Positions 8,363 to 31,100 of a stretch of 64,000 bases of DNA are shown here, piece after piece (positions within the stretch are counted from its first letter, which is position 1; every line of letters begins with the position of its first letter). The position numbers were made by a program, and so were the translations under genes. Source of the DNA: Nemopilema nomurai. Lineage: Eukaryota > Cnidaria > Scyphozoa > Rhizostomeae > Rhizostomatidae. The notes under the pieces are model-generated. The model was not told where the DNA came from, made no database searches, and saw only the letters and a list, made by a program, of their open reading frames with translations. The stretch spans positions 1,839,734-1,903,733 of the forward strand of contig ML133450.1 of NCBI GenBank assembly GCA_003864495.1, in the 5' to 3' direction.

Positions 8363-9360
8363 TCAAAATGGCAGCTTGATTCCATACACGGCCTCTAGCG
8401 TAGATATAAGTCGTCTGTAGTGCTGGCCATTCAAGCACATGAGTTTGAATTTACTGCGGTTTTTTCGTATCAAGCTTAAACCAGCAAACATTTTGTAAAT
8501 CTCGATGTTTCTCACGCTGTTGCTTTTTGATAGCAATGAATGCGTTTCCATCTTAGTAATGTTGACAACATCTGCAGAATTCAAAAAGACTAGTATTAAT
8601 TTTAATCTTTCTGAGGAACTCTCAAAGCAATTTATCTTAGCATTTGCACAAGCGTAGAGTCGCATAAATGAGTAGAGTAAGTCTAAGAGTTGGATGAAAG
8701 CTTCTATGAAATGTTTGGAGCATTATATTTTTCGTTATAGCGAAAGCAAAAAATTATAATTCAGCGTTAAGATTTGTCTGGTCTAAAGGGGAGCACAAGA
8801 GTCGATTTTTTATAGCAGCTTAAAGTAATTCTGATGGCACACTTATTAATTATTCAGAAAAATATTGGATTTTTAAGGGACACAAGAGAACCTGAGTTCC
8901 AAGAGAGACAATTTTAAATCTTAAAGAAGGCAAAGCTGAAAATTTCACATACCTTTCAAGTGTAGCTTTTCTTCAAAAAATTTGCCATTTGTGCAAACAA
9001 ACTTCAGCTTCTTTTGAGATTTGCTAATTTTTATTTTGCCCATAACAGCGGTTTCAATCCCAACTATGAAAAAAACAGTGAAATGTTTAAACGGCTTCTG
9101 ATAAATGCGCGGCAATGAAAGGCCATCTGTCTCCCATAGCTAATAATGGTGATTATGACTTTCTCAAAGTTGAACGCTTCTATAAGGCAAAATTAACAAA
9201 TAATGATCATAATATCAATGATCGTAATAATGATAGTCATAGCAATATCAAACTGTAGAAATACTTACGTCTCTTTTTTATCAGAATGGCTTCCATACCA
9301 CGTTTCTTGAAGTCTTCCAAAGCGTTCTTCTGACAACTGTTAAGTAATATTTTCCCATTA
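8363..9360 (-). CDS. exons 20-22: unknown C-terminal domain after the thioesterase
   Basis: The frame of exon 20 could run on to a TGA at 9239-9237, but it passes a strong AC|GTAAGT donor at 9269/9268. Splicing there joins exon 21 (9063-8953) and exon 22 (8571-8363) with matching phases, ending in TGA at 8365-8363. The added C-terminal part (about 3430-3554) is basic and looks beta-strand-rich (MGKIKISKSQKKLKFVC, then FKLMCLNGQHYRRLIS near the end). Animal FAS ends at the TE, so this tail is extra. I do not recognise a family. If these last two exons are wrong, the protein ends ten residues after the donor. Confidence 0.62.
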
Positions 9361-12300
9361 TTCGGAAACAGGAGTCTGAACTTGAGCATGGCGGCAACTG
9401 AGAACATCTTTCCTATCCCAGGACCTCTGCTGGCATCCATCATAGAGTAGTGGTCTCCGGGGCATGTTATGCATATGGGCTTTTTGTGCAGAACAGAAGC
9501 CCAACATTCTATGGGCTTTCCAAGTCCGACGATACTCTTACAAAACTTGTCGTCCTCCGCTTCTAAGTAAAGCGTGTCACCAGAATAAAGGTCCTACAGC
9601 AAATGGAAAGACTGCGTGAGTATACCTTGGTGTGACACTTCAACAAATAATATGGAAAATCCGCAACAAACATTGGAATACAACATGAAAGTAAATTTAC
9701 GACCACCTAGATTAGATTTGACTTTCTAGTTATCATATATGTTATGGTGCCTTTATCAATAACGACGATGGTTTTCATGAACTACAGACAGAAAATATTT
9801 TCAATCAACAGAAAAAGTTTGTTCAAATAGTCAGCAGTTAAAAGTCAGTCATGATTTAAAATGGAGCCTTGCTTGACAGATAAGTCAGTGTGAGACTGAG
9901 TGGGCCATAAAAATGGTCTTTCTTCGTAATTCACCGTCAAATCCATTATACACGTTCACAGCTCATATCTCAGGGATATTTAGTGGTGGCCCCTCACTCC
10001 AGCTTTGGCCAATGAAGCTTCATAAATATCACCATATTTTTCTACGAAAAGTGACTTTGTGTGACCTGTTGGTCTTATCAGATCGATGCTAATACCGACC
10101 ATGACCATGGACACAAGAGACACAAATCAATTGCGTACACACCCCTGGCACCCACTCGTCATGACACCTAGCTGACATCTGCTGGTCAAACGTCGTGGAC
10201 TCGAAAATCTTGTCGATATCTGGGATTTCAACCTTCAATTCTTCTGCTCTTTTGTTGAAAAAGTCCTTGATTTCTTCAAATGATTTATCTTGCCTGAAAC
10301 GGTCGTACTCTTCTAGAGTCATCTGAAGCTTCCGTGTGGCAATTTTACAGAAGAACGTCTTCATTTGTTCCTAAACAAATAATACTTAGTCGTAAATGTC
10401 ATAGCCAATATATCAATTTCAGCCACAGAGTAGTTTTTAGGTATACCAGAGCAGAGAGTGGAACAGGGGAAGGGTGACAAAGGCGAAATACTCAACAGTG
10501 AAACTGTACACAGTCTTTAATCAGATTAGACTGATCAGAATACTGAGCACATGATCAGTGTCCTTAGACAACTAAAAGTCACTGCTAAAACAGACCAGGA
10601 TACCTTAAAGTGTGTAAGTAGACTAGTTCTGGCAGCGAGATAGTATTCCTCATTGCTTAAGAAAACTGAAATGGAACTCACTTTTATGTGCTCCTCTGTC
10701 TCGTGTCTCGTTTCGATCATATTGATGAGCAACTGACTATTGTTCCTCCCCAGTGGCACCCACCTCACAGTGTCAATCATTATCACTAATGCCACCTCTT
10801 TGCCTGAGCGTTTCATGATGGATGCCATCTCAAGAGCGACAAGACCACCAAAGGAATAACCGCCAAGAAAATATGGGCCGTTCGGCTGTACCTCGAGTAT
10901 TCGCTCAATGCATGCTTTGGCTAGCCTGTTTACTGAGCCAATGTCTTCCCCAATCACTGAAGGCTCTATCCAGCCAAAAGCATATAGGGAGAAAATTTTC
11001 TACAAAAGAAGAGGGCAGTTTGATATCCTTAGAACCCACGCGTGTAACTACTTTCTTGTCCATTTAACAGTAAATCAGACATTACATTTCAATAGAATAT
11101 TCCGCTACCTCAAAAAAGAGATAGAGTCTGAAAGCCTCATCACTATTTTTCATTTGAACAGAACAAAAAATGAGCGACTTGTGGCCCACTTGCATTAGAG
11201 GCTTAAGATGATGCATTCTTCCCATTATTACACTGGAAAACACTAATTCAGAGACTCGATGACTTGAAAAGGCAGAAACTTGATACCTGATATCTCATCC
11301 CCATGCCGAGGATTTGAAGGACCCCAGAGTATCTGTGAGAGGGATGCACCATGAAAATATTTGCTTGTGCATCGCTGGGCTTATATATAACAGACAAGTA
11401 CTCTTTTGGTAGAACCAGTTTGTCATCATCCTCGTCTAAAAAGAGATCTTTATATTATTGAAATGACCATGGCGAGCTCTTGAAACCTGAATATGAAATG
11501 ATAAACTTTGTCGTAGGATCCAATCCTATCAACTATGACTAAATGTGGACATTTTTATCCCTTTTTCTCAAAAAAAATGGCAAATTGAAAGCCCTTCCAC
11601 TGGCTGTTAGTAATTATCGAATCCACCTGTTATGACCTGAAAGTGTGTTGCAATGTCCAGTACAATGGTACTAGCTATATGGTCTGAACTAAGTGTTTAG
11701 TTAGTATCTCCTCATGGGTTGTCGCTACTACGAATGTAATATGAGTGAAGCTGGAGGAAAGCTCTGTCCTGCATTTCTCAGAGACAATGCAGTTTCCTTG
11801 ATAGAAGCAAGTCTCCTGTTGATTAAGAAAATTGTAACACCTCTAAACAACAAAGAAACAAGGTATCTGTGCGCGAGAGATTATGACGAACCTTCCTCTT
11901 GAAGAAGTTTATCCTCTTCAGCATCTTTTTCATCTACTGCTTCTTCACCATCACCCTTCGAGTTTGGCTTGATGAACTTCTCATGGATCGCTGCTAGCAG
12001 GTCTTCTGCAAGCTTGTTTATAGTCGTCTCTGCTTGCATGAAGTAAAACACCTAACAAAAATTATGCATTGTTTCAGAAGCAGCCATTGAGAGCAATTCA
12101 ATTTTAAAATTTTGTTCGGTTACAAAACTGCTTGTAGAGCATCACTGTCACATAAACAAAAAAGAATTATCACTTCCTTTTCAAGGACTAGAATCGTTGG
12201 CTAGTTACAGCGAATGGCTGTTTAGTACTAGAAAGCTTTCTAGACAGACACAGCTTCCGAAACACTCACTTGAAAATCGATTTTCAAGTCTTTCTCAATT

Positions 12301-15300
12301 TGGCCTTTGATTGCTGTGGCACCAACAGAGTCGATACCGTAGGTAAACATTGGCACATTGCAGTCGATCTCCTCCGCAGATCCACTAATCCATGCGGCTA
12401 CCCAGCCTTTGATGTAGCCCAGTAGTATTGCCAGTTGTCTTTCTTGTGACTTCTCAGCCAGAATCATCTCCAGGATATTACCACTCTCTTCTTTCGTTTC
12501 AGGCAGCTCCTTCCGAATTTCGTCATAAATAATGCTGTCAGCTTTCCTCGGTGGGAGACTTCTTAAGAATGTTGCCCAATCTACGTCGCATATGCAAATA
12601 TTGGATTTTTCTGGCATTTGTGACAGCACTTTGTCCAACCATGTAAGTCCTAGAAATGAACTTAATTATCATTCTTAAATCTGCAACATTTATAGAATGC
12701 TATGATCCCACTTCTCTCAAAGACATAATGTCGGTTGAACAAAACGATTTCTTCAAAGTTAATTTGGTGGTTGTAATCTGCCTGCATAACTGGATCTGCT
12801 TATCTGGATATAATCAATTATTCTGTTAATGCTAATCAATTCATATTATAGGCAGTTTCTTGATGGATAAAAGCATATCGCTGAGTATGTTAAGACTGCA
12901 AATATATGGCGACTTTTACGCATTTTCAAAAGAAAATAATCTTGACTTAGTTCCAATTTAATATACTTCTAATGTGCTATCGAGCTTAATTGTATTTCCT
13001 GTTATGTTTCATTTATCAACTTGAAATCTCGTTCTAGGTACCGACTACAAGTTGATGATGTTTCCTGGCAAAAAGGACGGTTGAATGTTGTGTTAAAATT
13101 GCGAATCACCACCAGGCATTGCAAAGTCGTACATGTTTACGTTGAACTCATTGGCAATCGTTAAACTCAGAGATCACAGGCAACAAAGACAGGAGCTTGG
13201 CAGTCTATCATGCCGTTGATTCAAGATTCTGATTCAAGGCTCCCGTAAGTAAATATAGTAATTAGCTTAGCAAGGTATGACAAGATCATGGTAATAGAAC
13301 CTGTTGGGATATCTAGCAAATGCAAGCCAGATTTCTCTAGAAGCATTGCCACTTTGACGTTTCGCTCCAATATTCCTCCTCCACCCATTGCACCCCAACA
13401 AACAGCCAAGCACGGCTTCCCAAGAACCCTGGCTCGGTAATCGGCAAAGCTGTTCATGAAAGCATTTGCAGCAGAATACGAGCTTTGCCCTGAGTTGCCC
13501 ACAACTGCAGTGATTGATGAGTAAAGAACGAAGAAATCAAGTTGCTCGTTGCGATACTCCAGTATTTCGTGTAGTCTCAAAGTACCTGGAACAAACAAGT
13601 CGAAAGTCATTTTATAGTATTGGCAAGACAATATCGATCATACTCTGTAGATTGCCTCTTAATGCAAGATGTGAGAATAGTTGTCATCTCAAATTTCTTG
13701 CAGAACTCAAATGGCGTCTATTTAAGAGTCGACGCATGCGTGCATCTCAAATACACTTCTGCACATTCTGTCTGCGCTATTCAATTCAACCTTCTTCTGC
13801 ACGCGCATTGAAAATTTTAAGAGTGATAAGCAAGAGGCTTACCAGTTACTTTGGGCTGCATTACTTTCTGGTAACTTTCTCGATCGACTTCCGAAAAGAG
13901 TCGGTCATCAATGACAGCAGCGCTGTTCACTACCCCTGCAAGCCTGGGGTGCAGTTCCAATTCTTGCATCAGGTGATCTGCCCCCTTTTTCGTGCTTACA
14001 TCTGCTTTGACGAATTTAATCTCTGTGCCATGTCTCTTCTTTAAGCTCATGAAACTTGCAGCAGTTGCTTCCGCAGGCTCCGACCTTCCAACAACTATTA
14101 CGGTACCCGCGCCTGTATTTGAAGATTTAAATACAATTTAAGTACTAATTGCGGATTCACCTTGTTTTCAGCCCTTCAAATACAGGATAAGATTCGTATC
14201 ATCAAGTTCGCCTCATAACAGCGGTGTTTGCCTAGTTTTTCATTGCTTTTTTCGCCTCGTTTTGAAGTGGATCGAATTTTTTAAAGAACAGGCCACGTAG
14301 TTGATCACGAGTAAATCTTTTTGAAGGGACTTATTCTGTGAACAAGTGGCTCATCATCAACCAACTCAATAAACAAAGGTTGCTGAAATTGCATTTTATC
14401 CATCTGCATGACCTTGTGCAAAATCATCACTGACACAGTCCATTACGGAAAGGGTAGTCCGAATGTGCCAATGTTTTACGGGAAACTCACCTCTAGATGC
14501 CATCCACATCACTGTGTTTAAGCCAAGGCCTTTGGTGCCCCCGATCACAATATAACTGCGATCCTTTTTAAGGCCCTGTATATCCATCGAAGGCTTATGC
14601 AATGGAATCGTCTCTTCTTCGTCCAAACGTACTTTGATGCAGTCCAGTATAATAGACTTTTCAAAGATAGTATCGAGGTTGGCCGTGTTGCAGATCTTGG
14701 AGAGCGAAAAGCACCGGGACCGCGGCATAGAGCTTATAACACTCTGGCTCTGTGCACCTGCGAATCTGGCAATTGCTTTTAGGAGAACTGAACGGCCAAA
14801 TGTGATGTCCAGTAGCTTGACATTTACCACTGTCAATGACCTTTCAACGACATAGTGGCTTGTTGACGAGCTGAAGCCGTTATCAAGAATAACGAGTACT
14901 CCATCTACAAGGCAAGCAGAGATGATTAAAGAAGGGCTAATCAAACTAGCTACTTGTTATACCGACCAGATTCTTCTTCTTATCTACAAAAATCTTCTTC
15001 CAGATTCTTGTAGTTCATGAACGGTATGCACATTAATCACTGGGCCCGTTATTCGATAACAATTATTGACAAAATGCAGAAATATGGCCAAGAACTTCTA
15101 TTGTCTTAAGCATGTCATGCTGACTTGTAAGTTAAATTTTTATGACCAATGGGCTGGTGAAACTAACCATTGCTAGAATGTGTGTGCGTGTTTTAGAGCC
15201 GTTCAGTATTCTGTAATGCTCACCTTTCCTAGTTACATTGATCAAGGCAGCACGATCAACTGGATGGAGATCAGAGGGGCAAATTGCACAATCGATGTTC

Positions 15301-18300
15301 CTGTTGTTGTCGCCGCTTTTTTTCAGGTATTCCTCTGCAAATTTCTTCATTAATTGTGTGTCTTCCATTGTAACTTCGAGGCCTTCCGATGAAGCGACCA
15401 AAGAGAGCGCCCAGCTCAAACCTCGAATGGACTCATTTGAAGCAATGAAGACTGTTTTGATGTTATCACCCGTTCTCAAAATCTTTGATAGAATGCTTTC
15501 AGCTTGTGTGAACAAACCTGTTTTTCATGTAAAAATTCAGTTTAGTTTGATAGGATTCACCCATTAAATTGGTTATAAAAAATAAGATTTTTTATTGTTA
15601 AAGAAAATGGCTGCCGCAGCATAGAGAGAAGATGGACAAGTAAGACTTCAGCTTTACCTGGCAGAATCGCGGCTTCGTCTCGTGATAACATCGGAGGCTT
15701 CTTGAAGACCTGCTCCACTGGCAGCTGCACTCGATCCTTGAGCCATTTGTCATTATACACTGCAATGACCTCATCGCCAGGTTGCAGCCCAAGGTCGTCC
15801 CCTGCAATTTCGGTTACAGTTCCCAAGGCACACTGCACCAAACGCTGTGAGTCGACTTGTTGAATATTTTTCAAGAGATTCTTGGAAGATCCGGTTGGCG
15901 ATGAGATATACTGTAAGTCAATGGAAACGGTGCCGTGCGGTACTGAGTCCATTCCTGGGAAGCTCTTCTTCACGCAGTAAGACTCTTCTGTTGCTGACCA
16001 TGACACATAGAAGTTGCTGGCTGCCGACACTTCTTTAAGCTGCTTATCCACTGATGCCTTAAAGAAATAATGTCAGTTTTGAATTTGCAGTTCAATATTA
16101 AGAGCCATTGTCACGAAATGTCTAGTTAATGATCCAAGAAACCACAGAAAGCAGAATACGGGAGAAGCACTGGGATAGGGAAAGGTCAGAAAGCAAATAA
16201 AACTGATACCTTGGCTGGCTTTACTCTTTGAAGCAGTGGCTGGGATACCGCTGAAGATGAGACGATGAGGCCTTCATCTACTGATCGCAACTTGACAGAA
16301 AGCAGCGCAGTTTTGATCTCTTCTTTTGAAGGGTTCGTCTTCAAATCAATTGGGATGACAGGAATCTTTGTTTCTATGTTTGTAACTCTGGCTAGGCCGA
16401 GAGCAGTTGAACCCCAGGGAATCACGCGCTCCTCCACCCCGGTCGTGTTATACTCAAACGACTGCGTGCAGAAGACAACGATTTTGCTCTGGGTGAGCTC
16501 GGATTCGCTGAGGGTTTTCAGCATCATCAGAGTCGATTCAAAGCAAAGCCACTGTGCAGTGAGGGCCAAGTCGTCACCTAACGAGAGCCGGTGTGCAAAA
16601 GCGGGAAGAAGATTAATCACCATCACACGCTTTTCAAGATCTTTGGCTCCTTCCAGCTGCTTCATGAATTTCTTATCGAAGCTCTCAACCATATCCCCCC
16701 CTTTTACTTCACAGAAAAGAATGCGTTCATTTGAAACCCCACACTCTTGTAAACATTCCATTGTCATCTTTGCCAGAAGGCAATCCCTGAAACCGAGGAC
16801 TATAAATTCGTCATAGCCTTCAAGGCTCTCCAGTTTCTCTGGATTTTCTGTAGGAATCCAATTCATTTCATATAGACTGCTTTCTATCATTGGGCGCCTC
16901 AGTGACCTTGACATTTCCTTCACCTGCAACAAGAGGTGTACTTCTCAACATTTATCAGAGACATGTGCTGCTTCAATAGTCATGAAAAGGAGTGGCTTCT
17001 AGATTGAGCGGTGACGAATTATTCTTGCTACCTTAATTCAGTTTTAAAGAAAGTCAACCTACGGTGTTCTAACCTGCTATTTCAACACCAAGGCAACTTA
17101 TTTCGAGAGAAAGTTTCCGAAAGCCGGTGCTTTTTTATCATCAACTGTTGATAACTTTGTCACAAGCGTAATGTTACAAGAACCTCCCAAGTCTAACGCA
17201 CAAGACATGCACCCTTAATGCCGTTTGCAGGTATCTTGGTAAAAAGCTTATCTCTAATAACTAGTCATAAAGCTGAAAACTCCCAGTCATGGTTGTTAAA
17301 GCAATTTGCTCCCTTCTACCTCTAACAGCGAGCTTGATTCTGAAGGTTATTTGGCTATACTGCACCTGGAAACCTTGCATGATCAATATATCGTCTCCGT
17401 GCTCGTTCAATAGTTTTGTATTGCAACTATCAGGTGTCGTCGGGTCAATCTCTGCATACCCATAAAATGTGTGGAATTTCCGTGACACAGGGTTCAAACG
17501 CACTGCTTTGACTCCTAAAAACATCATGTCGGGTCAATCAATGTTCAACTTGATTTTCGTAATCATAACCAATCGTTATCGTAAAAATTCATGAATTGAC
17601 TGTCCTTTAAAGAAAGAAACAAATGCTTTGTGATACAAAACTGAACAATGACAAGAAAAAGCGGAACTAGGTCTGCATACTAAATATGAAAGAAACCCGA
17701 GACGCTGTATAGAGACGCACCTATAGGGATCACTTGGCGACTATTGTCTTTTGAGCCAATCGCAATGCACGACTGCAGGCAGGCATCTATTATACAGGGG
17801 TGCACAATGCAAGCGTCAAGGCCTTTTTCAAGCGCAGCTGGCAACTTCAGTCTCACTAACGCTTTGCTGTCTGCAGACCAAGCTGTCTGGATTAGACTGA
17901 ATGTCTCGCCGAAATCAAAGCCGGTTTGCACTGTGAGATCGTTGAATTGCTTTGAATTGAGCAACTCGAAATCATTGCCAAAGTTGAGCTTGGACAGGAC
18001 ATTTTCGTCTTCTGGTATCAACACTGCTTCTGGCTCAAGTTTCTCTGATTCTGTATCTGACTCAATTTTCTTTGATTCTGCTTCGCCGTCAGATTCCACT
18101 TTGATTTCATTTACTTCCACCAGAAACGGCGTCGTATTAGACACCCCAGAATCAGTTTCTGAGACACTTTCGTACGAAATCTTCGACTCCTCCACTATAA
18201 TAAAACCAAATTGTTTATCATCTTACATCTTCTTAGTGTTTTTACTGCTTTATATCTCTATTATATCTCTGTCTCCCTTAATTTCATAAATGTTCTCTAA

Positions 18301-21300
18301 TTTAAAGCTTGAGATATGTGCCTACATGCGAAAACGGGTGTCTTACGGTAAAAACCATCTATGCCACGAGAAGAGTTCTAAAGTGATGATGTCACAAAAA
18401 CGAATTTTAGGAATTTCCGATTTTCGATCCGGTGACCTGAAAAAGCATCATGAAATACCTCTTAATAGCTAGTGAAGTTAGTCCATTGTGTTACAAATTG
18501 GCGGAGATATTGTCACATGTGTATTGGCTCTTTTGTAACTTTACATACAGAGCCAAAATAACAGTGATTGCAAACTTCAAATCTTTTGTAAACCCACGGT
18601 AGAGCCCTATCGAGGTGATTACAGTTATATGCATATTGTGAACACGTATAAAATATATATCATCGGAGAAAAAATGTTAGTTATTCTCTCAAACAGGATT
18701 TTGATGACTTGAAATAAGGACAGCACTAGACGGATGACAAACAAGTTAGCTTTACATCCAGCGCTAAAGGGTCATGGCTGTTGTCAATGTAAAATGTTAG
18801 CATGGACTGTTTGCCTTGAGGTTTGGACATCTTTTAATCATTTTATCATAAAATTTAGCAAAGAAAGGTGATAGCCAGCAACGACTTTAAAGGCAGCCCT
18901 CAAACTCCTCGAAAATCAATTTCAGTGTTTCAACTTCCATCCATTATCATTAGCATCGCGCTTTAAATGCAAATCTGGGACGGATTTCCTGTCTACATAT
19001 TATGCAGTAACAATGTTTGAGAACAAATACAAAACGTCAACATACTAGCTTCCGCTATTGACATGGCATTCTCATCTGGCGTTTGATAAACATGGACCAA
19101 TGTCGCAGTGGATAGTGGGACATCTCCTTGCTCTGTGACGTGGATAACTTTGAATGCTTGGACCTCATCAGACGTCAGCCCATTCTTTGTACTCTTAACT
19201 CTCCTGACAATGTGCTCATTTAATGGAAGGATGTTTTGGAATGTTATGTCCTTCACTACCACTGGTCTGGTTTTGATGCTAATGGCTGACGCCTCCAGGG
19301 CCATCTCGATGTAACATGCTCCTGGCATTATTACCCCTGCGAACAGAAGCAACTGCATTTCTAAAAGGGCTGTTCACGTCATTGTTCAAAGCGCTGATTC
19401 TAGAATATCAGGCCCAACAAAAAGGCCAAAGTTATAGGTCGTGATGATGAAGTTTCGCCGTTCAACACATCATCTCAAACTACACCCAAAACGAATTCAC
19501 AATGCTTCAGGATTCCAGTGTGGATTCATGAGAAGCTAAGCGGGTTGCACAAATCACAGGAAAAAAGGCGAGCGGGCTTTTACGTACTTGCTACTGAGTC
19601 GTTAGAGAATGATCAAAGATGGCGGAGATTGAGGAGGAAATGGGAGAAGATCTGTGAAAAGTTGCAACCCAGTCGGGAAAATTGCTGTTTCCGCCCTTGT
19701 TGGCTTTGAATTTTTTGTGGAACCATTTTGACCCGCGTAATATTTTGGAAACTTCTACATGTTTATACTTCAGGTTCGAATTTTCTAAGGGCCGTATCTT
19801 CTAGTTTTGATTTACTTTGCGATGAACTCTCGTTTATTGCGGCAGCTTTTAAAATTACTATGACCAATGTAAGAAAAAATAGTTAAAGTTTATCTATTCG
19901 TTCCGCCGAAGAGTTTATGTTGGATTTCATGATTCAATTTTCAATTAATTAAAAGAGTCATTGAGATCGTTACCGTTTAAAAAGACTTGCATTATGGAGA
20001 AATTTTGAAAATGAAAATTAGCCAAGCTTTAGAAAAACACTTTCCCTTCCCTTCGTGCATAAACGTGTTAATTTTTCAAGAGCCGCCTTGAAAAGCAGTC
20101 TGCTTGTTTTATTTGCAGTTGTGTAGGGCATTGCCTTAATTCTTCGCAGTTTTGAAGCCAGCCGGAGAACATGGTCTAGGCCGTGATTGGCAATTAGTTT
20201 CGACTAACCTGCTTGCTTCATCTTGTGGTCGTTCAGGTAGCCGTAGTTGAACAGGTCGAACTCGTTTTCCCATGTGCATGTCTCTGAAGTTATGATCTCG
20301 GGTACGCCTATGAGGTTCATCGAATACGTCGGCGTGACAAAGTTATCCTTCACCCACAGGTCAGCCTCCTGCCAAGGATAAGTTGGGAATCGAAGGAGCC
20401 TGCCTTTTTCTTGATTTTGCAGCTGGTGGAAGGATACGTCATACCCAAGTGTGTACATCTGGCCAATGGTCTGTGCGTACAAATGTTGCAGCCGATTCTC
20501 TTCTCCTTTCTTCGGCAACGCCTGTTTGAGAAGATACAAATCACTGTCTTAGTTTGCAAGGGTGGGACTTAAATATCAAATCTTGTTGGACCAGATTTCA
20601 CACAAAACGTGAATCCAGGGCTGCTTTTTTAACCTTTCAAGAGTCTCACAAGGTTTGGAGTTTAACTATGACATTTAATGTAGTCTTGTGCGTCTATTTC
20701 TGTCGAGTGAAGATCTCTAAGTGCATACCTGAATGACAGAAGCGTTTTCAATCCCCATCTGGCTTGCAATAGTTTTGATGTAGTACGTCACAACGGGTCT
20801 CGGGCTAATTTCAATGAAAATCGAGATGCCATCGGACAGCATCTTTGTGATGCACTGATTGAAAAGGACCGGGTTTCTCAGGTTTCGCCACCAGTACTCT
20901 TCGTCGATTTCGTCCGCCTCCATCCTTCGCCCCTCAGTCGTGGAAACAAACACGGTACGCGAGTTCCTCGGCCTGATCTTACCGCTCCTTATGCGCTGCT
21001 TGAACTGACTCTCGATCGCGTCCATGTGGTGGCTATGGAATGCTTTGTGGGTGGCAAGCTTTCTCCAGAAGATCTTCTTGTCGCCCGACTCGATGTATTC
21101 TTCTACCTTTTGAATTGCATCCGCGTCCCCAGAAATGGTTACATTTGCCTTGTCGTTTTCAGCTGCGATGCAGATTTGATCGCTCACCGAAATCTCTTCA
21201 AGTATTGCTTCAACTTCTTTTGCAGACAAACCTGAAATGGGGAGTGAAAAGCTAGTTAACATCTAACAAATATTTAGAGATGATGCCAGTACATTTCATT

Positions 21301-24300
21301 TGGGCCTGAACTAACTAAGCTTTAGAGTGCGAATTTGAACCAGTGTGAAGTGTGCAGAAATGGTTTGCAGTGTAGTATTGAACGTGAAAGAGAATCAGTG
21401 CATTCTATAGAAAGACTGCGACACCATTAACACTGTACCTATCGCTGCCATTGCTCCGGCTGATCGGCACTCATCTTGCAGCGACGCCCTAGCCATGATG
21501 ATGTCCACTGCCTGCTTCATTTTGATTATGCCGGCCACGCAAGCAGCTGTTATGTCTCCCAGGCTATGGCCACCAACAGCTGATGGAACGATCGAAGCAC
21601 TTTTAACCAAGAAGTTAGCTACGGCGTACTGGACCGCAAAGATTGACAACTGCACAGTGACAAGACAGTCTTCATTGCACTCCTCTCCCTTCAGGTATGC
21701 CAATAGAGATTCTCGATGTCCTCTCTTTCTAGCGCGCTTCTCGACCTTCTTAATGTCTTTGAGCATTGCAGGACTTGATAGAATATCATCTGCCATTCCG
21801 AGCCATTGAGATCCCTGCCCGCCGAATACGAAGGCAACAGCCGTGCAGTGCTTTGAGGTCTTCCCACCTGTAATACCTACAGCCTTGTCATTAGGATTGC
21901 TTGCGAACCCCTCCATCAACTTCTTTGCTCCCTCCAAATTCTCCGCCGCAACCGCAAGTCGGACGTTGTGATTCGAGCGTCGCTCGCTCAAGGTGTAGCA
22001 CACCTTTGCAGTGTTGTCAGCGTTGTCCTCCAGCGTGTTGAACCAACGACCGAAAGACGTTGCAGAATCGACCAACCCTGCCAAAGATCTTGCTGACAAT
22101 GCGAAGAGCTTCATAGGCCCCTTGCAGATTGGCGCCTTCTTCTTGGAGCACTTGAATTTTTCAAGCTTTTTAGTAGGCTCTTGTAGGATCAAGTGGGCAT
22201 TGCTCCCTCCATAGCCAAAAGAATTGATGGCGGCAATTTTGGGCTTTCCAATTGCAGCTGGCCAGTCACACATCTTAGTGGCCACCACCAGTCCCTTCTC
22301 TTCAATGTCTAGTCTCACTGCCTGGTCTTCGATTCCCACAGTAGGGTACACTTTCTCATTTTTCATCATCAAGCAAACTTTGGCAAGGCCGGCTAGGCCT
22401 GCTGCTGATTCAGTGTGATTTATGTTCGACTTCACGCTCCCTGAAACCAAAAGTCATTCAATTAAATGTTTTGCTCTGAAGTGTCAAAATATTTCTGCAA
22501 AAAACCTGCACCAAAGAATGATGCCGGTGAATCATTCGCTACAATACTTTTATCACCCCTACCGCTATCCACATTGTCTTATTGTCTCATAAGGGCAGAA
22601 ATCTCAGTAGAAACATTTAAAACAGTTCAGAAGACATTTTCATTTAAAAAACATTTTAGCATAAACAGTGTATTATGTTTCATTAAATTTTCTCTTTTAG
22701 TTGTAAAGTGTGTAATGCGCCGTTGAGCCCCGATGAGATACGGTGAAATAACAGTTCCTTTATTATTATAAGTATTATTACCTTTATTATTATTATACTT
22801 ATTATTTTATCTACGATGTGTGAAAAGAAGGGAAAGAAGCCTGGTTGAATCTAAATTACGACATATGTCAAAAACTCACATACCACATAATGTAAAAAAC
22901 CGAGGTCTTACCTATCATAAGAAGATTATCTGGGGTCCTTGCCTTTCCGTAGACAGCACCAACCGATTTGGTCTCGACCATGTCGCCAATGATTGTGCCA
23001 GTGCCATGCATTTCAACGTATTGAACATCCTGCGGATCGACTTTAGAGTGCTGCAGCACTTCAAACATCAGATCTCGCTGCGACTCGACACTCGGCGCAG
23101 TGATCGGAGCTGCGGTTTGTCCATCGTTGTTGACTCCCCAGGAAAGAATGTCGCAGTAAGGCTCGTCTTTGCAGCTTACTAGATCGCTTGCCTTCAGGAC
23201 GAAAGCGACCACCCCTTCTCCGCGACCGTACCCGTTGGCTCTCTCGTCAAACACCTTGCATTTGCCATCAGGAGCGAGCATATTGGTCCTGCAAATAGTG
23301 ATTTGCTTTCTTGGGCATAGCACTAGATTGGCTGCAGCAACGATGGCGACATCCACGCTGCGTCGTTCCAAGTGGTCACAAGCAACACTGAGGGCAGTGA
23401 GGGACGACGAGCAGGCTGTGTCTATGGCAATACTCGGTCCGGTCAGGTTGAGTGAGAACGAAATCCGGTTGGCAGCAATGGAAAAGGCCGTTCCCGTGCT
23501 TGCAAACTGATCAATGGACAGTATGGTGTCATCTTTGAGCACAACGGAGCTGTAGTCAAGGTTCATTATTCCCACGTAAACCCCAGTTATGCATTGCTGC
23601 AGCTCTTCTAAGGTCACGCCCGCATCCTCGATCGACTCATACACCCCTTGCAGCAGCATTCGTTGCTGTGGATCCATGCTCCTGGCCTCTGTCGCAGATA
23701 TCCCGAAAAACTGGTGGTCGAATCTTTGGATGTTTTCTAGGTATGAGCCATCAGAGACATACGCTCGTCCTGCAACTGGCCGCGTAGGATTGAACACACT
23801 TTCAAAGTACCTGTCCCGTGCATGCCTGTCTGTGGGATATTTCCCCAAAGTGTTCTGGCCTTCCTGTAGCAGATTTTCAAACTCCTGGTTGCTCCTGGCT
23901 GTAGGAAACCGTGTGGACATGCCGGTAACCGATACGGAGAACCTTTCTTTGCTCAGGACAGCAGACTTTTTGGACCGTTCTTTTGGTGGTAGAACTTTGT
24001 CAATATCTTTCGGCGACAGCTTTTCTTCGTTGGCTAGAAACCTTGCGAAAATTGAAAGCATCACTGGAAGTACAGCAAGTCCATTGTAAAGTCCAAAAAG
24101 TATGATTCCCAGGAACATTTTGAAGAAAATCTACGATGAAAAAGTTCAATCGGCAATTGAATTCAAGAGTTAAAAAATCTTTGATCTAATTGTCTTGTTT
24201 TGCAAAGTGGTAAAAAGGTGCGTAATCTAACTACTTGAAGTCGGCAGTTCTACATTTCGGGCTTTTTGTTGCCAGCGTGGCGAACAGTAGCTTAGGTGAA

Positions 24301-27300
24301 GGTTTAAAAACTTTGGCCTGTCAAAGCCTTTTTACGTGTATCGCCCACTTGAAATGCGCATAAAGTTTTACAGTAGAGCGATTTAATATTCGTTGACATT
24401 TATACGAGGCAATATTCGTTTTTCCAATGTCTAAGCCACGGCCTTCAACCTAAAAAATTATCCAGCATGCAGAGGTGAGAAGGCGATCAGGGCGGCTATC
24501 AGAGTATGCAAACGTCGGAAAATGACCAAAAGCTGACAATATAAATAGTCAGTTGCGGATCGAAAACGCTAAAGGTGGTGAGATGTTTACATGCATTGAG
24601 GGGTGTCTAAACATGCAAAACTAGTCTGTGAACAAAGCACTTGCTTGCAGACTATTTAAAAGACGTGAATGTGATTGCTAAACATTGCTAAAAGTGTTAC
24701 ATTGAGACAAGATATCTAACTGAATGTTGATAGAAAGACTTAAAGAAATCAGAACTTACCTATCAGATATCTAACTTAATGTTGGTAGAGAGACTTAAAG
24801 AAATCAGAACTTACCTATCAGATATCGAACTGAATGTTGGTAGAGAGACTTTAGCTTACCTGAAAAATGGTGGACGAAGCAAGCCCAGTGAGGGACATTC
24901 CAAGGAACGTGCTTACACCACCCAGCACAACACTCCCGCCAACTGTCGAGAGAGCGTGGATGATTCGGTCGTTGACGCTATCGGCGGTGGATGTGGCGAA
25001 GGCATGGGCAATGTGGGCACTGTAGTCTACGGCGAAGCCGATGGACATGACGATGTTGATCATTGATATCGCGTTCAGCTGGATGTCCCAGAAGTACATC
25101 AGGCCGAATATCTCCACTATAAGAGTTGTGAAGCCGAGGTTCATCAAGACGACGGTCACTGGGTGAATGCAGAAAGGAATGACCATAATTGTAATGACGG
25201 CCGACGCCGCCACGAGATTCCTCGTAACCTCCTTAATGACCGCGGCATACTGCTCGAAGTAGATAAACGGATCTGAAGCAACAGTGCAATCCAGCCGGCT
25301 GTACTTTTTCAGGGCTTGTCGTAGAGTCAACATGGCATCCTTCTGAAACGTAGCCTTGGAATTGTCTTTCAGGAACACTATCACGCGACTGGCGACAATA
25401 TCGTTGTCCTTGTTAAGGATGACATCCAGGTTGTGCTGGTAGTAAACAGGCAAAGAGAGGAAGGCCTTAATGTTGACTGTGAAGTTGTTTCCTTGAGTAT
25501 ATGGCCCAAACATTCTGATAAAATCATCGTAATAGTGGACCCAGGTAAAGTTTTGCTTAATGTAGTAGCCGGTATTGTGGGCAATGCTTGCGAGATCAGA
25601 AATCTGTCTTCGCACGGTTGGATCCGAGTAATTGACCTTATTTGTCAATTGTATGCTGACTGGAATCGTCTGCGGAAAATTTCCTTCAAATGTGGCAATG
25701 TAATCCGAATAGTAGCTTCCCTTCACCGCCAGGCTCTTTCGATTGAACTCATTCTGAATGTTAAGACAGCCGTATATGCCGAAAGCAATGATTCCCAGCG
25801 TTGACACAACCACGAGTGTTTTGCCACATGTGGAAAGAAGATACTTGCCGTATCGTGCCATGAACTTCTGAGCGAAGGAGAAGTCATTCGGAAGCCTACA
25901 GCACGTGCGATCACGGACCTCAAGAGCCGGACAGCAGTCGTTTCTGTTAGCGAAGATTCGTCTGGCGTCGAACGTCAAGAAGGCAATAAACAGGCTGATT
26001 TGCAACAGAAACTCGATGTTGATGCATATGGCAGTGTAGATGCAGAAGTATCGGATTGCAGGGAACGAGCTGGTTGCGCTGACAAAGAAGGCGACGACGT
26101 CAGTGAGGGTGGTCATCGTGATTGTTGCACCTACCTTGGACAAGGCGTATGCGACACGATTTTCTGGAGCATTGCTTTTCAACTGGCGGTCGAACTCGTC
26201 AACAATAATGAACATGTCGTCGATGCCGATGCTGACAACTAGAAACGGAACAACGCCGACGAGGTTAATGAACGGGACGCCTAGGCCTATTGTTATGCTG
26301 ATGCCAGCCAGGATGCCCATTCCAGTGCATAACACTCCCAGTACGGACAGCCAACTGTGACCACGAACTGGGTTTATGAACTTTGCCAGCATCAGGCACG
26401 AAAACGTAATCATCACTGCAAACGTTATACTAACGAGCGAAATGTCACGAGTCGAGCTTTCAGATATTGCATCGTCCAAACTTCTCTCTGCTGAGAAGTA
26501 TAGATCAATATGTTTCAGACTGTTCTTGGCTGACTTCATCTTCAAAATGAAGCTCTTTTCCCAGTCTAAGATCTTTTGAGCGTCGGCACTTTTAACTCCT
26601 TGTTTCAAAAATATTTGTATTTTAAGTGCTTTCGCTAAAGGAATACGTTTTCTGTGATCCAGCTTAAAGTCTACAAAGCCATCATATATATTGAAGATTG
26701 CAGCTCTTCCATTCGACATTAAGACACTCGTGGATTGCAAGGCCCTCTGAAGTTTCCTATATAAAACGATCAGGCTTCTCTCCGTCCCTGTGAAGATTTC
26801 CAAAGGATTCATTTGCGCACATAGTCTATTCCTTATGTACTTCCTTTGTGCTTTCCTGACAAAACCTGGGCTTAACCTGCAGATATCTTCATATCCAGAT
26901 ACATTTACAGCCAGATTCGAAACCCATAATGCTTCTCTAATGCTCTTCACATCGAATACATTGCTTCCGTTTTTTGGCACTATGATCAAATCTTCTGTTC
27001 TCGTGTTCATGGTATTAGGGAAGAAGCTACTACCAGCTTTTAACGCTTGCTCAGCCAAGGAGTTTTCCGGTACAAAAAGCTTTGATGATCTTTTCTCATG
27101 GTGCATCTGTAACAAGCCGGTAGTTGATAATGCCACTCCCAAAAGAGCTATGAGAACCGTTTTCTTTGGGTTTTTGGCAACCTTCTTCCCCAAAATCTCG
27201 AAAAAAATTTCGCAGTGAGCAAGAAATGAGCGAATGGTGATGATGTAGGCATACCACCAGACTGTAAGGCGACCTCTCTCAGAGACCGGCTTCAAAGGGA

Positions 27301-27316
27301 CTGCATTCTTCCTCAT
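8363..27316 (-). CDS. Patched/RND permease fused to an iterative FAS-like polyketide synthase (22 coding exons)
   Basis: Exons, 5' to 3' on the minus strand: 27316-24860, 24130-22912, 22440-21439, 21231-20729, 20521-20209, 19336-19046, 18194-17721, 17514-17366, 16923-16210, 16057-15658, 15517-15224, 14904-14491, 14112-13843, 13585-13301, 12649-12270, 12051-11892, 11435-11287, 10999-10682, 10370-10143, 9593-9269, 9063-8953, 8571-8363. Every intron is GT...AG and every phase matches, giving 10,665 bp and 3,554 residues. The ATG at 27316 is the first after an in-frame TAA about 40 bases upstream. Domain order with approximate residues: Patched/RND 1-850, KS 881-1320, AT 1335-1730, DH 1775-2136, pseudo-KR 2137-2374, degenerate ER 2375-2700, KR 2715-2930, ACP 2990-3075, TE 3110-3420, unknown C-terminal domain 3430-3554. 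The known animal FAS-like enzymes lack the permease. Predicted role: assembly of a polyketide or modified fatty acid in the cytosol with handover to the attached permease (inference). The exon structure is manual and not supported by transcripts. Confidence 0.85.
9269..11435 (-). CDS. exons 17-20: type I thioesterase (TE)
   Basis: Alpha/beta-hydrolase TE resembling the chain-terminating TE of animal FAS. Exon 17 has the first strand IFMVHPSHRYSG. Exon 18 has ILEVQPNGPYFLGGYSFGGL with nucleophile S3207, then a candidate acid in IMIDTVRW. Exon 19 gives the lid and the charged helix LEEYDRFRQDKSFEEIKDFF. Exon 20 has GDTLYLEAEDD and the catalytic histidine H3388 in PGDHYSMMD. The triad appears complete, so the chain is probably released by hydrolysis or cyclisation. 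Confidence 0.85.
11892..12649 (-). CDS. exons 15-16: acyl carrier protein (ACP) and acidic linker
   Basis: Exon 15 (12649-12270) ends the KR-ACP linker and carries the phosphopantetheine site FTYGIDSVGA with S3036. Exon 16 (12051-11892) gives the last ACP helix (INKLAEDLLAAI), then a strongly acidic linker into the thioesterase. A single ACP is seen, as expected for an iterative enzyme. A separate phosphopantetheinyl transferase would be needed and none is in the window. Confidence 0.85.
13301..14590 (-). CDS. exons 12-14: ketoreductase (KR)
   Basis: The NADPH motif GGTKGLG (2727-2733) lies in exon 12, followed by GTVIVVGRS in exon 13. Catalytic residues in exon 14 are S2857 (YSSIT), Y2870 and N2874 (SSYSAAN); the active-site lysine lies in QPKVTG at the exon 13/14 junction. 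All are canonical for short-chain-dehydrogenase KR domains, so beta-keto groups should be reduced to hydroxyls. Confidence 0.88.
14600..16057 (-). CDS. exons 10-12: enoylreductase-like domain, degenerate
   Basis: Exon 10 (16057-15658) has the medium-chain-reductase N-terminal part: GTVTEIAGDDLGLQPGDEV, then SRDEAAILP, as in PKS/FAS enoylreductases. In exon 11 (15517-15224) the Rossmann region reads KTVFIASNESIRGLSWAL, where an active ER has a GGVGxA-type NADPH loop. The following strands are still recognisable (NIDCAICPSD, then GVLVILDNG at the start of exon 12). The fold seems retained while the dinucleotide-binding glycines are lost, so enoyl reduction in cis is unlikely. Confidence 0.72.
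16210..16923 (-). CDS. exon 9: pseudo-ketoreductase structural subdomain
   Basis: 238 residues (2137-2374) starting after SLYEMNWIP. The stretch ending VIPWGSTALGLARV is the conserved structural element of the truncated KR half in animal FAS and reducing PKSs. There is no glycine-rich cofactor motif, and I see no methyltransferase S-adenosylmethionine motif, so a C-methyltransferase appears absent. Its role would be to support the catalytic KR encoded by exons 12-14. Confidence 0.72.
17366..20521 (-). CDS. exons 5-8: dehydratase (DH), with irregular N-terminal motif
   Basis: Exon 5 (20521-20209) carries the post-AT linker RFPTYPWQEADLW and the start of the first hotdog fold. Exon 6 (19336-19046) continues VIMPGACYIEMAL. 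Exon 7 (18194-17721) has an acidic, serine-rich insertion at about 1930-1990, then the second hotdog motif HPCIIDACLQ with D2065. Exon 8 (17514-17366) completes the fold. The usual HxxxGxxxxP box reads HKMKQAGVIMP (H1826 to P1836), one residue longer and without glycine at the fifth position. The irregularity falls at the exon 5/6 junction and no alternative GT/AG pair restores the usual spacing. The histidine and aspartate are present, so activity is possible but uncertain. Confidence 0.8.
20729..22115 (-). CDS. exons 3-4: acyltransferase (AT)
   Basis: AT domain at about residues 1335-1730, across the 3' part of exon 3 (ending 21439) and exon 4 (21231-20729). FGGQGSQW lies at 1430-1437, the nucleophile S1518 in GGHSLGD, and the second active-site histidine H1625 in HKAFHSHHMD. 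The AFHS form is the one usually seen in malonyl-specific AT domains, so malonyl-CoA is the likely extender (inference from family knowledge). The exon 3/4 junction splits a glycine codon (G1560). Confidence 0.88.
22160..24130 (-). CDS. exons 2-3: last permease helix plus ketoacyl synthase (KS)
   Basis: Exon 2 (24130-22912) opens with residues 820-847, beginning IFFKMFLGIILFGLYNGLAV. This matches the last transmembrane helix of Patched-family proteins, which also begins FFKMF. After about 30 charged residues the KS begins (SVSVTGMSTRFP). The catalytic cysteine is C1059 in DTACSSSL, and the histidines are H1194 in EMHGTGT and H1234 in NINHTE (usually NIGH). The KS C-terminal motif NSFGYGGSNAH is present at 1298-1308. 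The helix and the KS share one uninterrupted exon, so the fusion does not depend on a predicted splice. Confidence 0.92.
24711..24859 (-). repeat. 55-bp tandem triplication containing 5' splice sites in intron 1
   Basis: Three tandem copies start at 24711, 24766 and 24821 (period 55). On the minus strand each carries a donor: GTAAGT at 24759-24754 and 24814-24809, each preceded by GATAG, and GTAAGC at 24859-24854 preceded by TTCAG, which is the real end of exon 1. The third copy lacks about 13 bases beside its donor. Two decoy donors with a better consensus than the authentic one therefore lie within 105 bases downstream of it. Confidence 0.85.
24860..27316 (-). CDS. exon 1: Patched/RND-type permease module
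   Basis: One exon of 819 codons. The first membrane helix lies near residues 53-70, followed by a large extracellular domain starting LFVPENS, typical of Patched-domain proteins. A sterol-sensing-domain-like five-helix block spans about 291-450 and carries GIDDMF at 364-369. A second half starts near 498, with a second extracellular loop and a closing helix bundle carrying GFAVDYSAHI at 760-769. The acidic residues D366/D367 and D764 sit where RND and Patched transporters carry their proton- or cation-coupling residues. The reading frame runs to CAG and then a GTAAGC donor. Continuing into the intron gives a stop after two codons. The module still lacks the final helix, which exon 2 supplies. 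Known family roles are sterol/lipid transport or Hedgehog reception; the fusion partner makes lipid export the likelier role here. Confidence 0.9.
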
Positions 27317-28194
27317 ATTTGCACCTTTAGGGAGAGAAGTGGGAAGATTCGGTTATGTTTAAATCGACTGCAAGAGATCTACGCGACGTGATGAGCATAC
27401 AATTTTTTCAGTTTTTGAAACGTTCCTTGATCATTTTTGATAAAGCCTTTTTATATGTCCTGTGTGAGATGAATCAGAGTTACTTGGAAATGCAGTCGTT
27501 GTATGATTCTGAAGTTTTTCAAAACTAGAGCTGTCAACACGTGTGTGCTAATAACTAGTGCGAAAAAAGATGCCTAACTACAAAACGAATTGTGACTTGA
27601 TTGGAAATTTCTTACGTGTTTCCTAAAATTCCACCTAAAGGAAAGTAAAGGGTAGATAACAGGCTTAAGCAACTTTAGAACTAATGGCTGTTAACCGATT
27701 CGTTAATGTAGTAGAGGTAAAAAAATTAATAAGATAATCTTTTGACTTCTTCTGACTCCTTTGAGAGAGTTTAAAGAAAATAAAATGATATTCAATCAAA
27801 ATGTTAATGTAGTTGAAACTTGAAATACTGGAGTAGTTTCTTATATAAGTCTTTTTGTGTCATTTTCCCATTGTGCTGTGTTCCTTTGAAATATTTTTAT
27901 GACAGCAGGCGGAATTATAATAGAAAAATAGACGTAAATGGATGCCTGGATATTCATTTTTGCTTTCTTTGCTGCCACCCCCGCGAATCAACACGAGACC
28001 TTGATAAATCTTTATCTAACTAACTGAAGGGATGTGTTGCGAATTGTAACTCAATTGATACTCTAAAAGGTGTGTTGCAAAATATATGACTTTTGTTATG
28101 TTGATTACTGTCAAATTTAATGGTCAACAGTTTAAGATTATCTTCAGTATTTCCTTTTGATCTTTTATCAGACTTCTCTAGCTTTTTCTATCAA
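27317..28194. other. 5' flank of the permease-synthase gene
   Basis: AT-rich, with an in-frame stop upstream of the ATG. The promoter and 5' UTR should lie here or beyond a non-coding exon. No core promoter motif is convincing, and the Grl-like, UPF0547-like and transposon sequences do not extend into it. Confidence 0.4.
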
Positions 28195-31100
28195 AATAAT
28201 AGCCCCGGACATCCAAAAACAAAGCTTCGATATGAAAACATTTATAGTTTTTATAAAGTTTATAAATATTTATAAAGTATATAGTTTCTCTGCAGTTTTC
28301 ATAAAGTACAACACATAACATATGGAATGCTAAGTCTTTGGAATGCACTGAATTCAATAGGCCTGTTCCTGTACAACTGCAATGGTGCCAATTTGAAGTG
28401 ACTTAAGCAACAAAATAAGCTATGCGTTAAGCTCTTGCAATAGCCTTCAAAGAAAAATTGCAACTATTAAAGCATGGCATGCGTTCGAAAGTCAAACGAG
28501 AGGTTTTTAACCCGCATCCTGCAGCGTTAGTTTGAAGGAAAACATCGTCAAAAGATGGAAGTAATCCATGCCTCGGATTGATCAGCTCCATGCCTCGGAT
28601 TAGTCAGCTCCATGCAACTAAATGGCACGAGACTTACAGGAGATTTCAAATCTTCTATGTGCTAGCTGAGGCCCGTCTACCGACGTTGTTATAGGACCCC
28701 CTATCAGAAGTCGATAAAGTTTTAGGGGAGTTATCAACGTAGCATAGAACGGTATTCGACATCACCATAGTCACAGAAAAACACGGTGCTAATGCGGAGG
28801 ATCGATAACAGGAAAATCTTTTAGAGGCCGACGGCGTAGAAAGCCTTCACAGTAGCCCATTGTACCATACCTGGAATCTGGATGAATGTTTTTGTAGTAG
28901 CGATACTCTATGTGGCCCTTTTTGTATTGACTTCGGAACCTTGCCAACAGACACCATTGTCTAGAAACCTATAAATCTTGAACTAAAATATGGAAAAAGC
29001 ACAAATACAGTTTGGAATTTTAGAATCAAAGCGTCGTTATCATGACAGGAGCTCCCTTCAAATTGAACAACATAGAGATTTTCCTGGCTAGTAATTAAGC
29101 TGGTTTTACAGACAATGAGGTCGGCTGAAAAACGAAAATCCTCTTTGGAACATTTTTGAAAGATTAAATATTTGAAAAACAAAATGAAAATGGAAAGCTG
29201 ATCTCTTTTCACTTTGAATTAAATGAAAAAGCCATGTTTACTTCATTTTGCAAGGGTTTTCTGGTGCCTTTCAATTCGGTTTCACTTTTTTCAGTTTATT
29301 TACTTAATTTTTCGCTGAAATAGTTTAATCCGATTTTTCGCTCCTTCAAGTTTAATCCTGTATCACTATTGTGACATAAGCCTGGAAAAGGAGCTGAGCG
29401 ACCTACCCTACAACTGTTTTAGCCATTTCTTAGTGTTCTATCATATTAGATTTTTATTGAGGAAGTGGAAGTCCCATTCAAGTATAAACTTTTAAGTGGT
29501 TATTCAGAGGGGCCAAAACAAAGTCAATGCTGTTGTTTCCAACTTAAGTAAATGTTTTTAGCTTCGAGACCATGATGAAAAGATTGTAAAATGGAAATAA
29601 TAATAGCCCCGGACATCCAAATACAAAGCTTCGATATGAAAACATTTATAGTTTTTAGAAATTCATAAAGTTTTATAAAGTATATAGTTTCTCTGCAGTT
29701 TTCATAAAGTACAACACATAACATATGGAATGCTAAGTCTTTGGAATGCACTGAATTCAATAGGCCTGTTCCTGTACAACTGCACTGGTGCCAATTTGAA
29801 GTGACTTAAGCAACAAAATAAGCTATGCGTTAAGCTCTTGCAATAGCCTTCAAAGAAAAATTGCAACTATTAAAGCATGGCATGCGTTCGAAAGTCAAAC
29901 GAGAGGTTTTTAACCCGCATCCTGCAGCGTTAGTTTGAAGGAAAACATCGTCAAAAGATGGAAGTAATCCATGCCTCGGATTGATCAGCTCCATGCCTCG
30001 GATTAGTCAGCTCCATGCAACTAAATGGCACGAGACTTACAGGAGATTTCAAATCTTCTATGTGCTAGCTGAGGCCCGTCTACCGACGTTGTTATAGGAC
30101 CCCCTATCAGAAGTCGATAAAGTTTTAGGGGAGTTATCAACGTAGCATAGAACGGTATTCGACATCACCATAGTCACAGAAAAACACGGTGCTAATGCGG
30201 AGGATCGATAACAGGAAAATCTTTTAGAGGCCGACGGCGTAGAAAGCCTTCACAGTAGCCCATTGTACCATACCTGGAATCTGGATGAATCAGCTCGCTT
30301 TGTCTAGTGGCGAAACTCTATGTGGATATTTACTTCTTTGATATACACGCTTTTTTTATAAGGAACCACTTTATAAGGAACCACAGAAGGCCGGAATATT
30401 TAAAGAACTTATACTACTAGAAACGAAATCGTTAAGGAACTTTTCGATTTGAAAAATGTTTTTAACTGCAAGCATCAAGAACTAAAAAGCCCGTTCCATT
30501 CATTTGCAGCCAATACTTGCATAGATTGTTTGCTATTCGTGTGTCAAGTGCTTTATCGAGTAGTTTCCGCATAGTCTATCTCGCCCCTCTCTCTATTAAG
30601 TGTTAAAGCTTATTGATGTGCAGTGAAAACTAAGAAACTTTTAAGGAACTTTTGGTACTAAAATCTGATGACTTGAGGTCTACGAATAGGGAACTTTTGG
30701 AACTAGGCCTTATGGTAAGTTCCTTATAAAGAAGCGTGTAGTTAACAAAGTCGTCTTGTTTTGAGATCGACTTAGGAAACTTGCAAACAGACACTATTGT
30801 CTAGAACCCGAAAACCTGGAAATTGAAAATCCTAAGTTGATTCTAGTCTAATTGATCTTAGGAGGTTTAACATATCAATTTTGGACTAAAGGCAGAAATA
30901 ACATAAGTACAGTTTGGAATTTTTCTCCAGGAACAGAATCAAAGCGCCGTTACCATGACAGAAGTTTACTCAAATTGAACCGTTTAGAAACTTCTCTGGT
31001 TAGTAATTAAGCTGGTTTTACAGACAATGAGGTGGGCTCAAAAACGAAAATCCACTTTGGAGCTTTTGTGAACATTTAATATTTGAAAAATGAAAATGGA

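Follow-up and report, generated by a model that had tools for sequence, protein, structure and literature searches.

The gene described here lies on the minus strand of a 64,000-nucleotide stretch of DNA (GenBank contig ML133450.1, positions 1,839,734 to 1,903,733; hereafter the window), from window position 27316 to 8363, and almost certainly encodes a single fusion polypeptide in which an RND permease is continued by a polyketide synthase (PKS). It was modelled as a single gene (22 exons, 3,554 codons, 0 internal stops). The domain order was Patched/NPC1-type RND permease, ketosynthase (KS), acyltransferase (AT), dehydratase (DH), degenerate enoylreductase (ER)-like region, ketoreductase (KR), acyl carrier protein (ACP), thioesterase (TE) and a C-terminal domain of unknown family. 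A preliminary description, made from the letters of the window, had proposed one polypeptide with the permease ahead of a complete synthase, and this arrangement was found to be common to related genes and species. The source genome comprises 212.9 Mb in 226 contigs; its introns and size are eukaryotic.

The junction of the two halves was read directly. Exon 1 (24860..27316) was one open frame with the C-terminal residues STIFQ, and exon 2 (22912..24130, minus strand) started with IFFKMFLGIILFGLYNGLAV, with the KS beginning 63 codons further and containing DTACSSSL with no stop between. The opening of exon 2, IFFKMFLGIILFGLYNGLAVLPVML, was assigned to helix 12 (the first ~27 codons), and a linker of about 35 residues led from there to the KS, so that the last Patched-type helix and the KS do share an exon, as first described. 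The junction was in phase 0 on both sides, and intron 1 sat inside the RND fold. Exon 1 had been credited with the other eleven helices in matching phase; the phase was borne out, and the number eleven was obtained by homology. Plain hydropathy marked 10 segments within the first 860 residues and another 3, false or doubtful, in the synthase. In both paralogous copies found on another contig of the genome the exon 1/2 join was identically placed, the intron measuring 330 and 352 bases there as against 729 in the window gene. Exon-1-like frames from other sources extended only slightly beyond the corresponding IFQ or IFK (11 of 11), and in the EukProt protein P0001 and other fused proteins IFQ continued directly into helix 12. 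Chance read-through between neighbouring genes was rejected, given an intron inside the RND fold and relatives with the same order. An assembly join, the alternative named in the preliminary description, was likewise rejected, because the same fusion was present at two other loci of the genome and in homologues from elsewhere. Two repeats were noted in intron 1, namely a 55-bp tandem repeat of 2.6 copies at its start (24710-24851), repeating the donor-like GGTAAGTT, and a dispersed repeat (24502-24597) with another copy near a paralogous gene on contig C91.

The comparative gene model was obtained by the Viterbi method from GT-AG sites, codon usage and homology to the two paralogous loci, and contained 21 GT-AG introns. 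Five boundaries (exon 2 donor, exon 3 acceptor, exon 6 acceptor, exon 12 acceptor and exon 18 donor) were moved by hand after comparison with the paralogues and P0001, and for exons 8-9 and 14-15 one of two alternative model versions was chosen. The model agreed with the 22 exons and 3,554 codons given earlier, a figure reached after hand adjustment and with the identical earlier figure already known. The exon 1/2 join was the best supported of all joins, and the weakest were in poorly conserved stretches (exons 6-8, 10-12 and 20-22). The first models had a further exon of 93 bases between exon 1 and exon 2, which was dropped because the paralogues have no counterpart.

Exon 1 encoded the N-terminus and the RND part up to helix 11. 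It was matched in Pfam by the Patched family (E 3.2e-32, 111.9 bits, cut-off 23) and the sterol-sensing domain (SSD; E 4.6e-39, 134.2 bits, cut-off 22.3), and among sequences of solved structures by NPC1 (top), NPC1L1 and Patched (best E 4e-47). In RND permeases acidic residues of transmembrane helices 4 and 10 (TM4 and TM10) have a relay role; in the window gene these residues were kept (TM4 GIDD with D366 and D367; TM10 D764). Among the fusions other than those of stony corals the TM4 motif was found in 31 of 34 (one being GIND) and the TM10 motif in 30 of 34, and the misses may reflect strictness of the pattern or damaged models.

The synthase occupied the remaining exons, all on the minus strand. 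The KS ran from about 23941 in exon 2 (Cys codon 23413) and ended in exon 3 (21439..22440), which also held the KS-AT linker and the first AT half (GHSLG, Ser codon 21565); exon 4 (20729..21231) encoded the second AT half and exon 5 (20209..20521) the AT end and the DH start (His1826, codon 20227). The DH continued through exon 6 (19046..19336; GVIMPGACYIE; hand-set acceptor) and, after a variable acidic linker, in exon 7 (17721..18194; second DH half, HPCIIDACLQ, Asp codon 17787), and ended in exon 8 (17366..17514). Exon 9 (16210..16923) covered a stretch with no Pfam match between the DH and the ER-like region, which occupied exon 10 (15658..16057), exon 11 (15224..15517) and the beginning of exon 12 (14491..14904; hand-set acceptor), where the KR started (GGTKGLG). 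The KR was completed in exons 13 (13843..14112) and 14 (13301..13585; catalytic part, Tyr codon 13478). Exon 15 (12270..12649) encoded the ACP (YGIDS, Ser codon 12329) and exon 16 (11892..12051) its end and a linker. The TE started in exon 17 (11287..11435), had its nucleophile in exon 18 (10682..10999; GGYSFGG, Ser codon 10855; hand-set donor), its middle in exon 19 (10143..10370) and its His in exon 20 (9269..9593; codon 9452), where the C-terminal domain began. That domain continued through exon 21 (8953..9063) to exon 22 (8363..8571), which ended in IKLPF and the stop codon. Apart from the exon 1 matches, Pfam recognized the KS in exons 2-3, the AT in exons 3-4, the ACP in exon 15 and the TE in exon 18 of the window gene; the DH and KR were recognized in the full-length homologue P0001, with whose DH and KR residues the window gene aligned. 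The C-terminal domain (~135 residues after the TE) was present in the window gene, both paralogous copies and P0001, was alignable in two stony-coral proteins, and matched no Pfam family over its cut-off.

By pattern or alignment, the catalytic residues of the KS, AT, DH, KR, ACP and TE were present in the window gene, one paralogous copy (copy A), P0001 and the Stylophora pistillata protein P0134. The KS, AT and ACP with their catalytic residues thus stood on one chain, as in a type I PKS, together with DH, KR and TE residues; the DH His-to-PG spacing was one residue longer than usual. The AT motif AFHS was taken by us as malonyl type. In the ER-like region no Pfam match exceeded its cut-off (best TOBE, E 0.04), and the nucleotide-binding motif was not recognizable in the window gene, copy A or P0001. 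With a degenerate ER region double bonds would remain, so that an unsaturated, polyene-like product is predicted for the window enzyme.

The synthase had been called FAS-like in the preliminary description, a label that did not survive comparison with solved sequences. The KS of the orthologue P0001 scored 307-320 bits with CurL and PksL and at most 242 with animal fatty acid synthase (FAS); with 7zma it scored 524 bits over two KS stretches. The sacoglossan FAS-like PKSs EcPKS1 and EcPKS2 were absent from the best 60 of 61 KS matches. Membership of the animal FAS-like PKSs was rejected on these KS scores, by which the KS stands closer to type I PKSs of microbes than to the FAS of animals.

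A search of the genome for Patched plus KS gave two more loci, both on contig C91 (G000:C91), at 1279714-1297043 (minus strand) and 1398803-1416718 (plus strand), and in each the two domains followed one another as in the window gene. The two loci, called copies A and B, form an inverted, near-identical pair about 100 kb apart. Their DNA was 96-98% identical in three blocks covering most of the length. Copy A was modelled with 3,541 codons and no stop, and across the RND part had ~47% protein identity to the window gene, exon by exon; exon 5 of copy B was one base shorter, which is either a disabling change or a sequence error. Synonymous divergence (Ks) between A and B was 0.05 in exon 1, 0.68 in exon 2, 0.02 in exons 3-21 without exon 5, and saturated in the last two exons. 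A diverged exon 2 and last two exons beside a near-identical remainder suggest gene conversion of the C91 copies outside those three exons. The corresponding Ka/Ks values, as point estimates only, were 0.44 (exon 1), 0.28 (exon 2) and 0.31 (exons 3-21 without exon 5). In the exon-wise search the only KS matches were those at the three fusion loci and at a single site on contig C129. The same search found no canonical cytosolic FAS, a weak negative since PPTase and COX1 were also missed.

Protein databases were searched with the RND region (5.8 billion proteins, long proteins only, 2,183 scored), which gave three matches, all of them fusions. One of the three, P0001 (3,629 aa), aligned from residue 21 to the end with 51% identity to a model version of 3,569 codons. 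In a second search, with an alignment as query, 8,000 proteins were scored and 200 of them reached E 1e-10 or better. Proteins carrying both Patched and ketoacyl synthase, for which the preliminary description had suggested looking, were well represented: 33 of the 120 matches listed had KS and Patched/SSD domains (P0002-P0032, P0036 and P0038; 30 of them with 1,531-1,989 residues), and the remaining matches listed carried one or the other only. No bacterium-named row with a Patched or SSD domain was present among the matches listed; the Patched/SSD rows with an organism name were all cnidarian, most rows being nameless. Many of the P0002-like proteins, mostly from ENA, had ragged, dissimilar tails past a shared GK-like point, and for this reason are probably unspliced frames with RND and KS in one exon. 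They were labelled soft-coral-like because two Patched-only models of Dendronephthya gigantea were 81% identical to the fused P0022. In a third search, with the synthase part (678 proteins, 120 of them listed), SSD and KS occurred together in 3 of the 120 matches listed: P0001, P0134 (Stylophora pistillata, 3,533 aa) and P0221 (Oculina patagonica). P0138 (Stylophora) was recognized as a fusion by alignment, its first 560 residues being alignable with the RND halves of P0134 and P0221, and this excluded its reading from Pfam as a free-standing KS of the fused clade; P0152, considered as another free-standing member, begins inside the KS and is uninformative. The RND-PKS fusion is thus present in stony corals and, judged from these sequences, probably in soft corals and jellyfish. 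The impression of a lone case given by the preliminary description was dispelled, dozens of homologues being present in databases.

Quick trees were calculated for the KS and RND parts. In the KS tree (45 rows) 14 fused rows and P0138 formed one clade (support 100) on a long stem. The clade divided into two branches, one window-like (support 85) and the other of stony-coral and soft-coral-like members (support 95). The window gene has its RND part directly upstream of the KS in one frame, and its KS fell within this clade. In the RND trees a branch with support 99 separated the fused rows from the sea-anemone and coral proteins named PTCHD3-like. The fused label required 5 changes in the first RND tree, where 11 exon-1-only frames (assumed to be parts of fusions) and a long-branch Clytia protein lay among the fused rows. 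In the second tree, from which the Clytia protein was omitted, the fused and exon-1-like rows did not form one side of a branch, and three other Patched loci of the genome were unresolved among them; constraining these rows together cost 1.18 log units (p-AU 0.37). This neither rejects nor establishes a single origin for the RND half, and the trees would fit one old fusion.

Several known systems resemble the window gene in part. Closest are uncharacterized PKSs of stony corals, Stylophora pistillata LOC111325863 (P0134) and LOC111328543 (P0138) and Oculina patagonica ACROYT_G022737 (P0221), annotated as uncharacterized or hypothetical, of which P0138 and P0221 are incomplete models. They share with the window gene an RND/SSD half followed by KS-AT-DH and the same KS clade, and P0134 also the KR-ACP-TE and C-terminal domain; they differ in the loss of TM4/TM10 acidic residues, considered below, and in the ER-like region, which keeps GPG(P/L)AAV-like letters. 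The nearest named non-fused RND relatives are the cnidarian patched domain-containing protein 3-like (PTCHD3-like) proteins, of which the sea-anemone and coral rows had about 37-42% identity to the fusion P0002 and, unlike it, no synthase attached in the models listed. EcPKS1 and EcPKS2 are likewise animal megasynthases, but lay outside the 60 best-scoring solved sequences for the KS (query P0001 KS); to our knowledge they have no transporter half. Enzyme-transporter fusions are known elsewhere. HMG-CoA reductase also joins a sterol-sensing membrane domain to a cytosolic biosynthetic enzyme, without the full RND fold and without a synthase, and its membrane part is a regulator. Medaka OlPKS and sea urchin PKS2 have the order KS-AT-DH-KR-ACP(-TE) found here, compared by description, with no transporter half listed (PMC4604110); in the same article the KS domains of animal PKSs are placed closer to microbial PKS than to FAS (PMC4604110). 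In Mycobacterium tuberculosis the RND permease MmpL7 binds the polyketide synthase PpsE, and a coupling of synthesis to export is proposed (PMC1238737); as in the fusion, an RND permease works with a polyketide synthase, there as two separate bacterial proteins (PMC1238737).

Coupled synthesis and export by one membrane-bound synthase-exporter is the mechanism that we consider best, with confidence a little above even. An RND lipid permease that belongs with the Patched-domain-containing proteins (PTCHD3/NPC1) would continue into a cytosolic iterative type I PKS module with KS, AT, DH, KR, ACP and TE. RND proteins of the Patched/NPC1 kind have both termini in the cytosol, which would place the synthase there. 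The synthase would assemble a chain from units that are probably malonyl-CoA, and the chain would be reduced and dehydrated and left short of saturation. The TE would release the product beside the membrane, and the attached permease, drawing on an ion gradient through the TM4/TM10 acidic residues, would carry it out of the cytosol, possibly to the cell surface, a vesicle or a mineralizing matrix. The kept acidic residues would agree with such export by the attached transporter.

Several points weigh against this reading. In the stony corals, all three proteins covering the sites (P0134, P0221 and P0138) had the first TM4 Asp replaced by Thr or Ser and the TM10 Asp by Asn or Gly, the second TM4 Asp being retained, and transport can thus not account for the fusion in every member. 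Enzymes, too, can carry sterol-sensing domains, which act there as regulators. The reading of the ER region as degenerate covers the window gene, copy A and P0001. Copy B may be damaged, which would make the Ka/Ks figures weaker. Pumping appears plausible in most fusions and doubtful in stony corals, whose RND halves lost acidic residues with the synthase still fused and may be a pump turned anchor. The same loss makes a real rival of a non-pumping RND/SSD half that holds the synthase at the membrane, senses sterol or product and controls stability or activity, an explanation to which we give a minor share of our confidence. It draws on the strong SSD match of exon 1, the precedent of HMG-CoA reductase and the stony-coral members, which remain fused despite the acidic loss and a very long RND stem in the tree; the window gene, however, matches the whole RND fold and retains acidic residues that a sensor would not need, as do 30-31 of the 34 fusions from outside the stony corals.

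Import and supply, in which the RND half would take a lipid or starter acid from membrane or lumen and pass it to the KS, appears improbable. The linker does run from helix 12 into the KS, which is the point of entry to the synthase, and NPC1, the top structure match, carries sterol from lumen to membrane, but no sequence feature supports this direction and the TE at the far end frees a product that would still have to leave. It is very unlikely that the fusion is a minor form beside two separate products. Transcripts retaining intron 1 would meet a stop two codons past the exon 1 donor and give a stand-alone RND protein of 821 aa, other starts giving a stand-alone synthase; the tandem repeat just inside intron 1 could be set beside this, as could the eleven predicted proteins that end shortly past the same place, though these resemble unspliced genomic frames. 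Such an RND protein would lack helix 12, however, exon 2 begins inside the RND fold and not at a domain border, and fused proteins from other sources read straight through. An artefact of assembly or gene modelling, to which the repeats of intron 1 and the five hand-set boundaries might point, is scarcely credible, with helix 12 and the KS in one exon and the same order at three loci of the genome and in dozens of proteins elsewhere.

Other features of the window and genome were noted in passing. Two open frames, of 438 and 456 codons and arranged head-to-head (1190-2503, minus; 2554-3921, plus), appeared by eye to be related and membrane-spanning, with no Pfam family over cut-off. Reverse transcriptase-like and retroelement gag-like fragments (34812-35048 and 63254-63670, both plus) were seen by eye only. 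Two copies of one repeat, near-identical across the first 200 bases, lay upstream of the fusion gene (28181-28402 and 29527-29805, minus). TTAGGG repeats were present in the genome and TTAGGC repeats absent.

Neither an RND nor a Patched fusion to a PKS was described in the open-licence PMC literature at the level of titles and abstract openings; each half is already known, and the combination is new by this literature. A 2015 table gives three Acropora digitifera PKSs as 'other-KS-AT-DH-KR-...', with 'other' left unexplained and also used for one turtle PKS (PMC4604110); the part so named ahead of the Acropora KS may correspond to the pump. In a large survey the analysis of animal PKSs was limited to KS domains (PMC10764717), and this may explain why the fusion escaped notice. 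The 2015 study ties animal PKSs to biomineralization and reports PKSs in coral and none in Hydra and Nematostella (PMC4604110). Polyenals with 6-14 double bonds are among the compounds reported in octocorals, mollusc shells and pearls (PMC11280045). Tentatively, and as a possibility on which we would not rely, a single fusion in an early cnidarian, before the jellyfish/coral split, could have delivered a polyene-like polyketide to the outside as a pigment or an aid to sclerite, skeleton or statolith nucleation, the permease of stony corals later becoming a non-pumping anchor.

The coupling of megasynthase and exporter, proposed from interaction data in mycobacteria, would here be built into one covalent chain in animals, and the idea is directly testable with one protein, one gene and two acidic sites. 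The fusion is also a concrete candidate for the source of cnidarian-made polyketides and of octocoral polyenals, and a single molecule may thus allow cnidarians both to produce a lipid-like compound and to move it.

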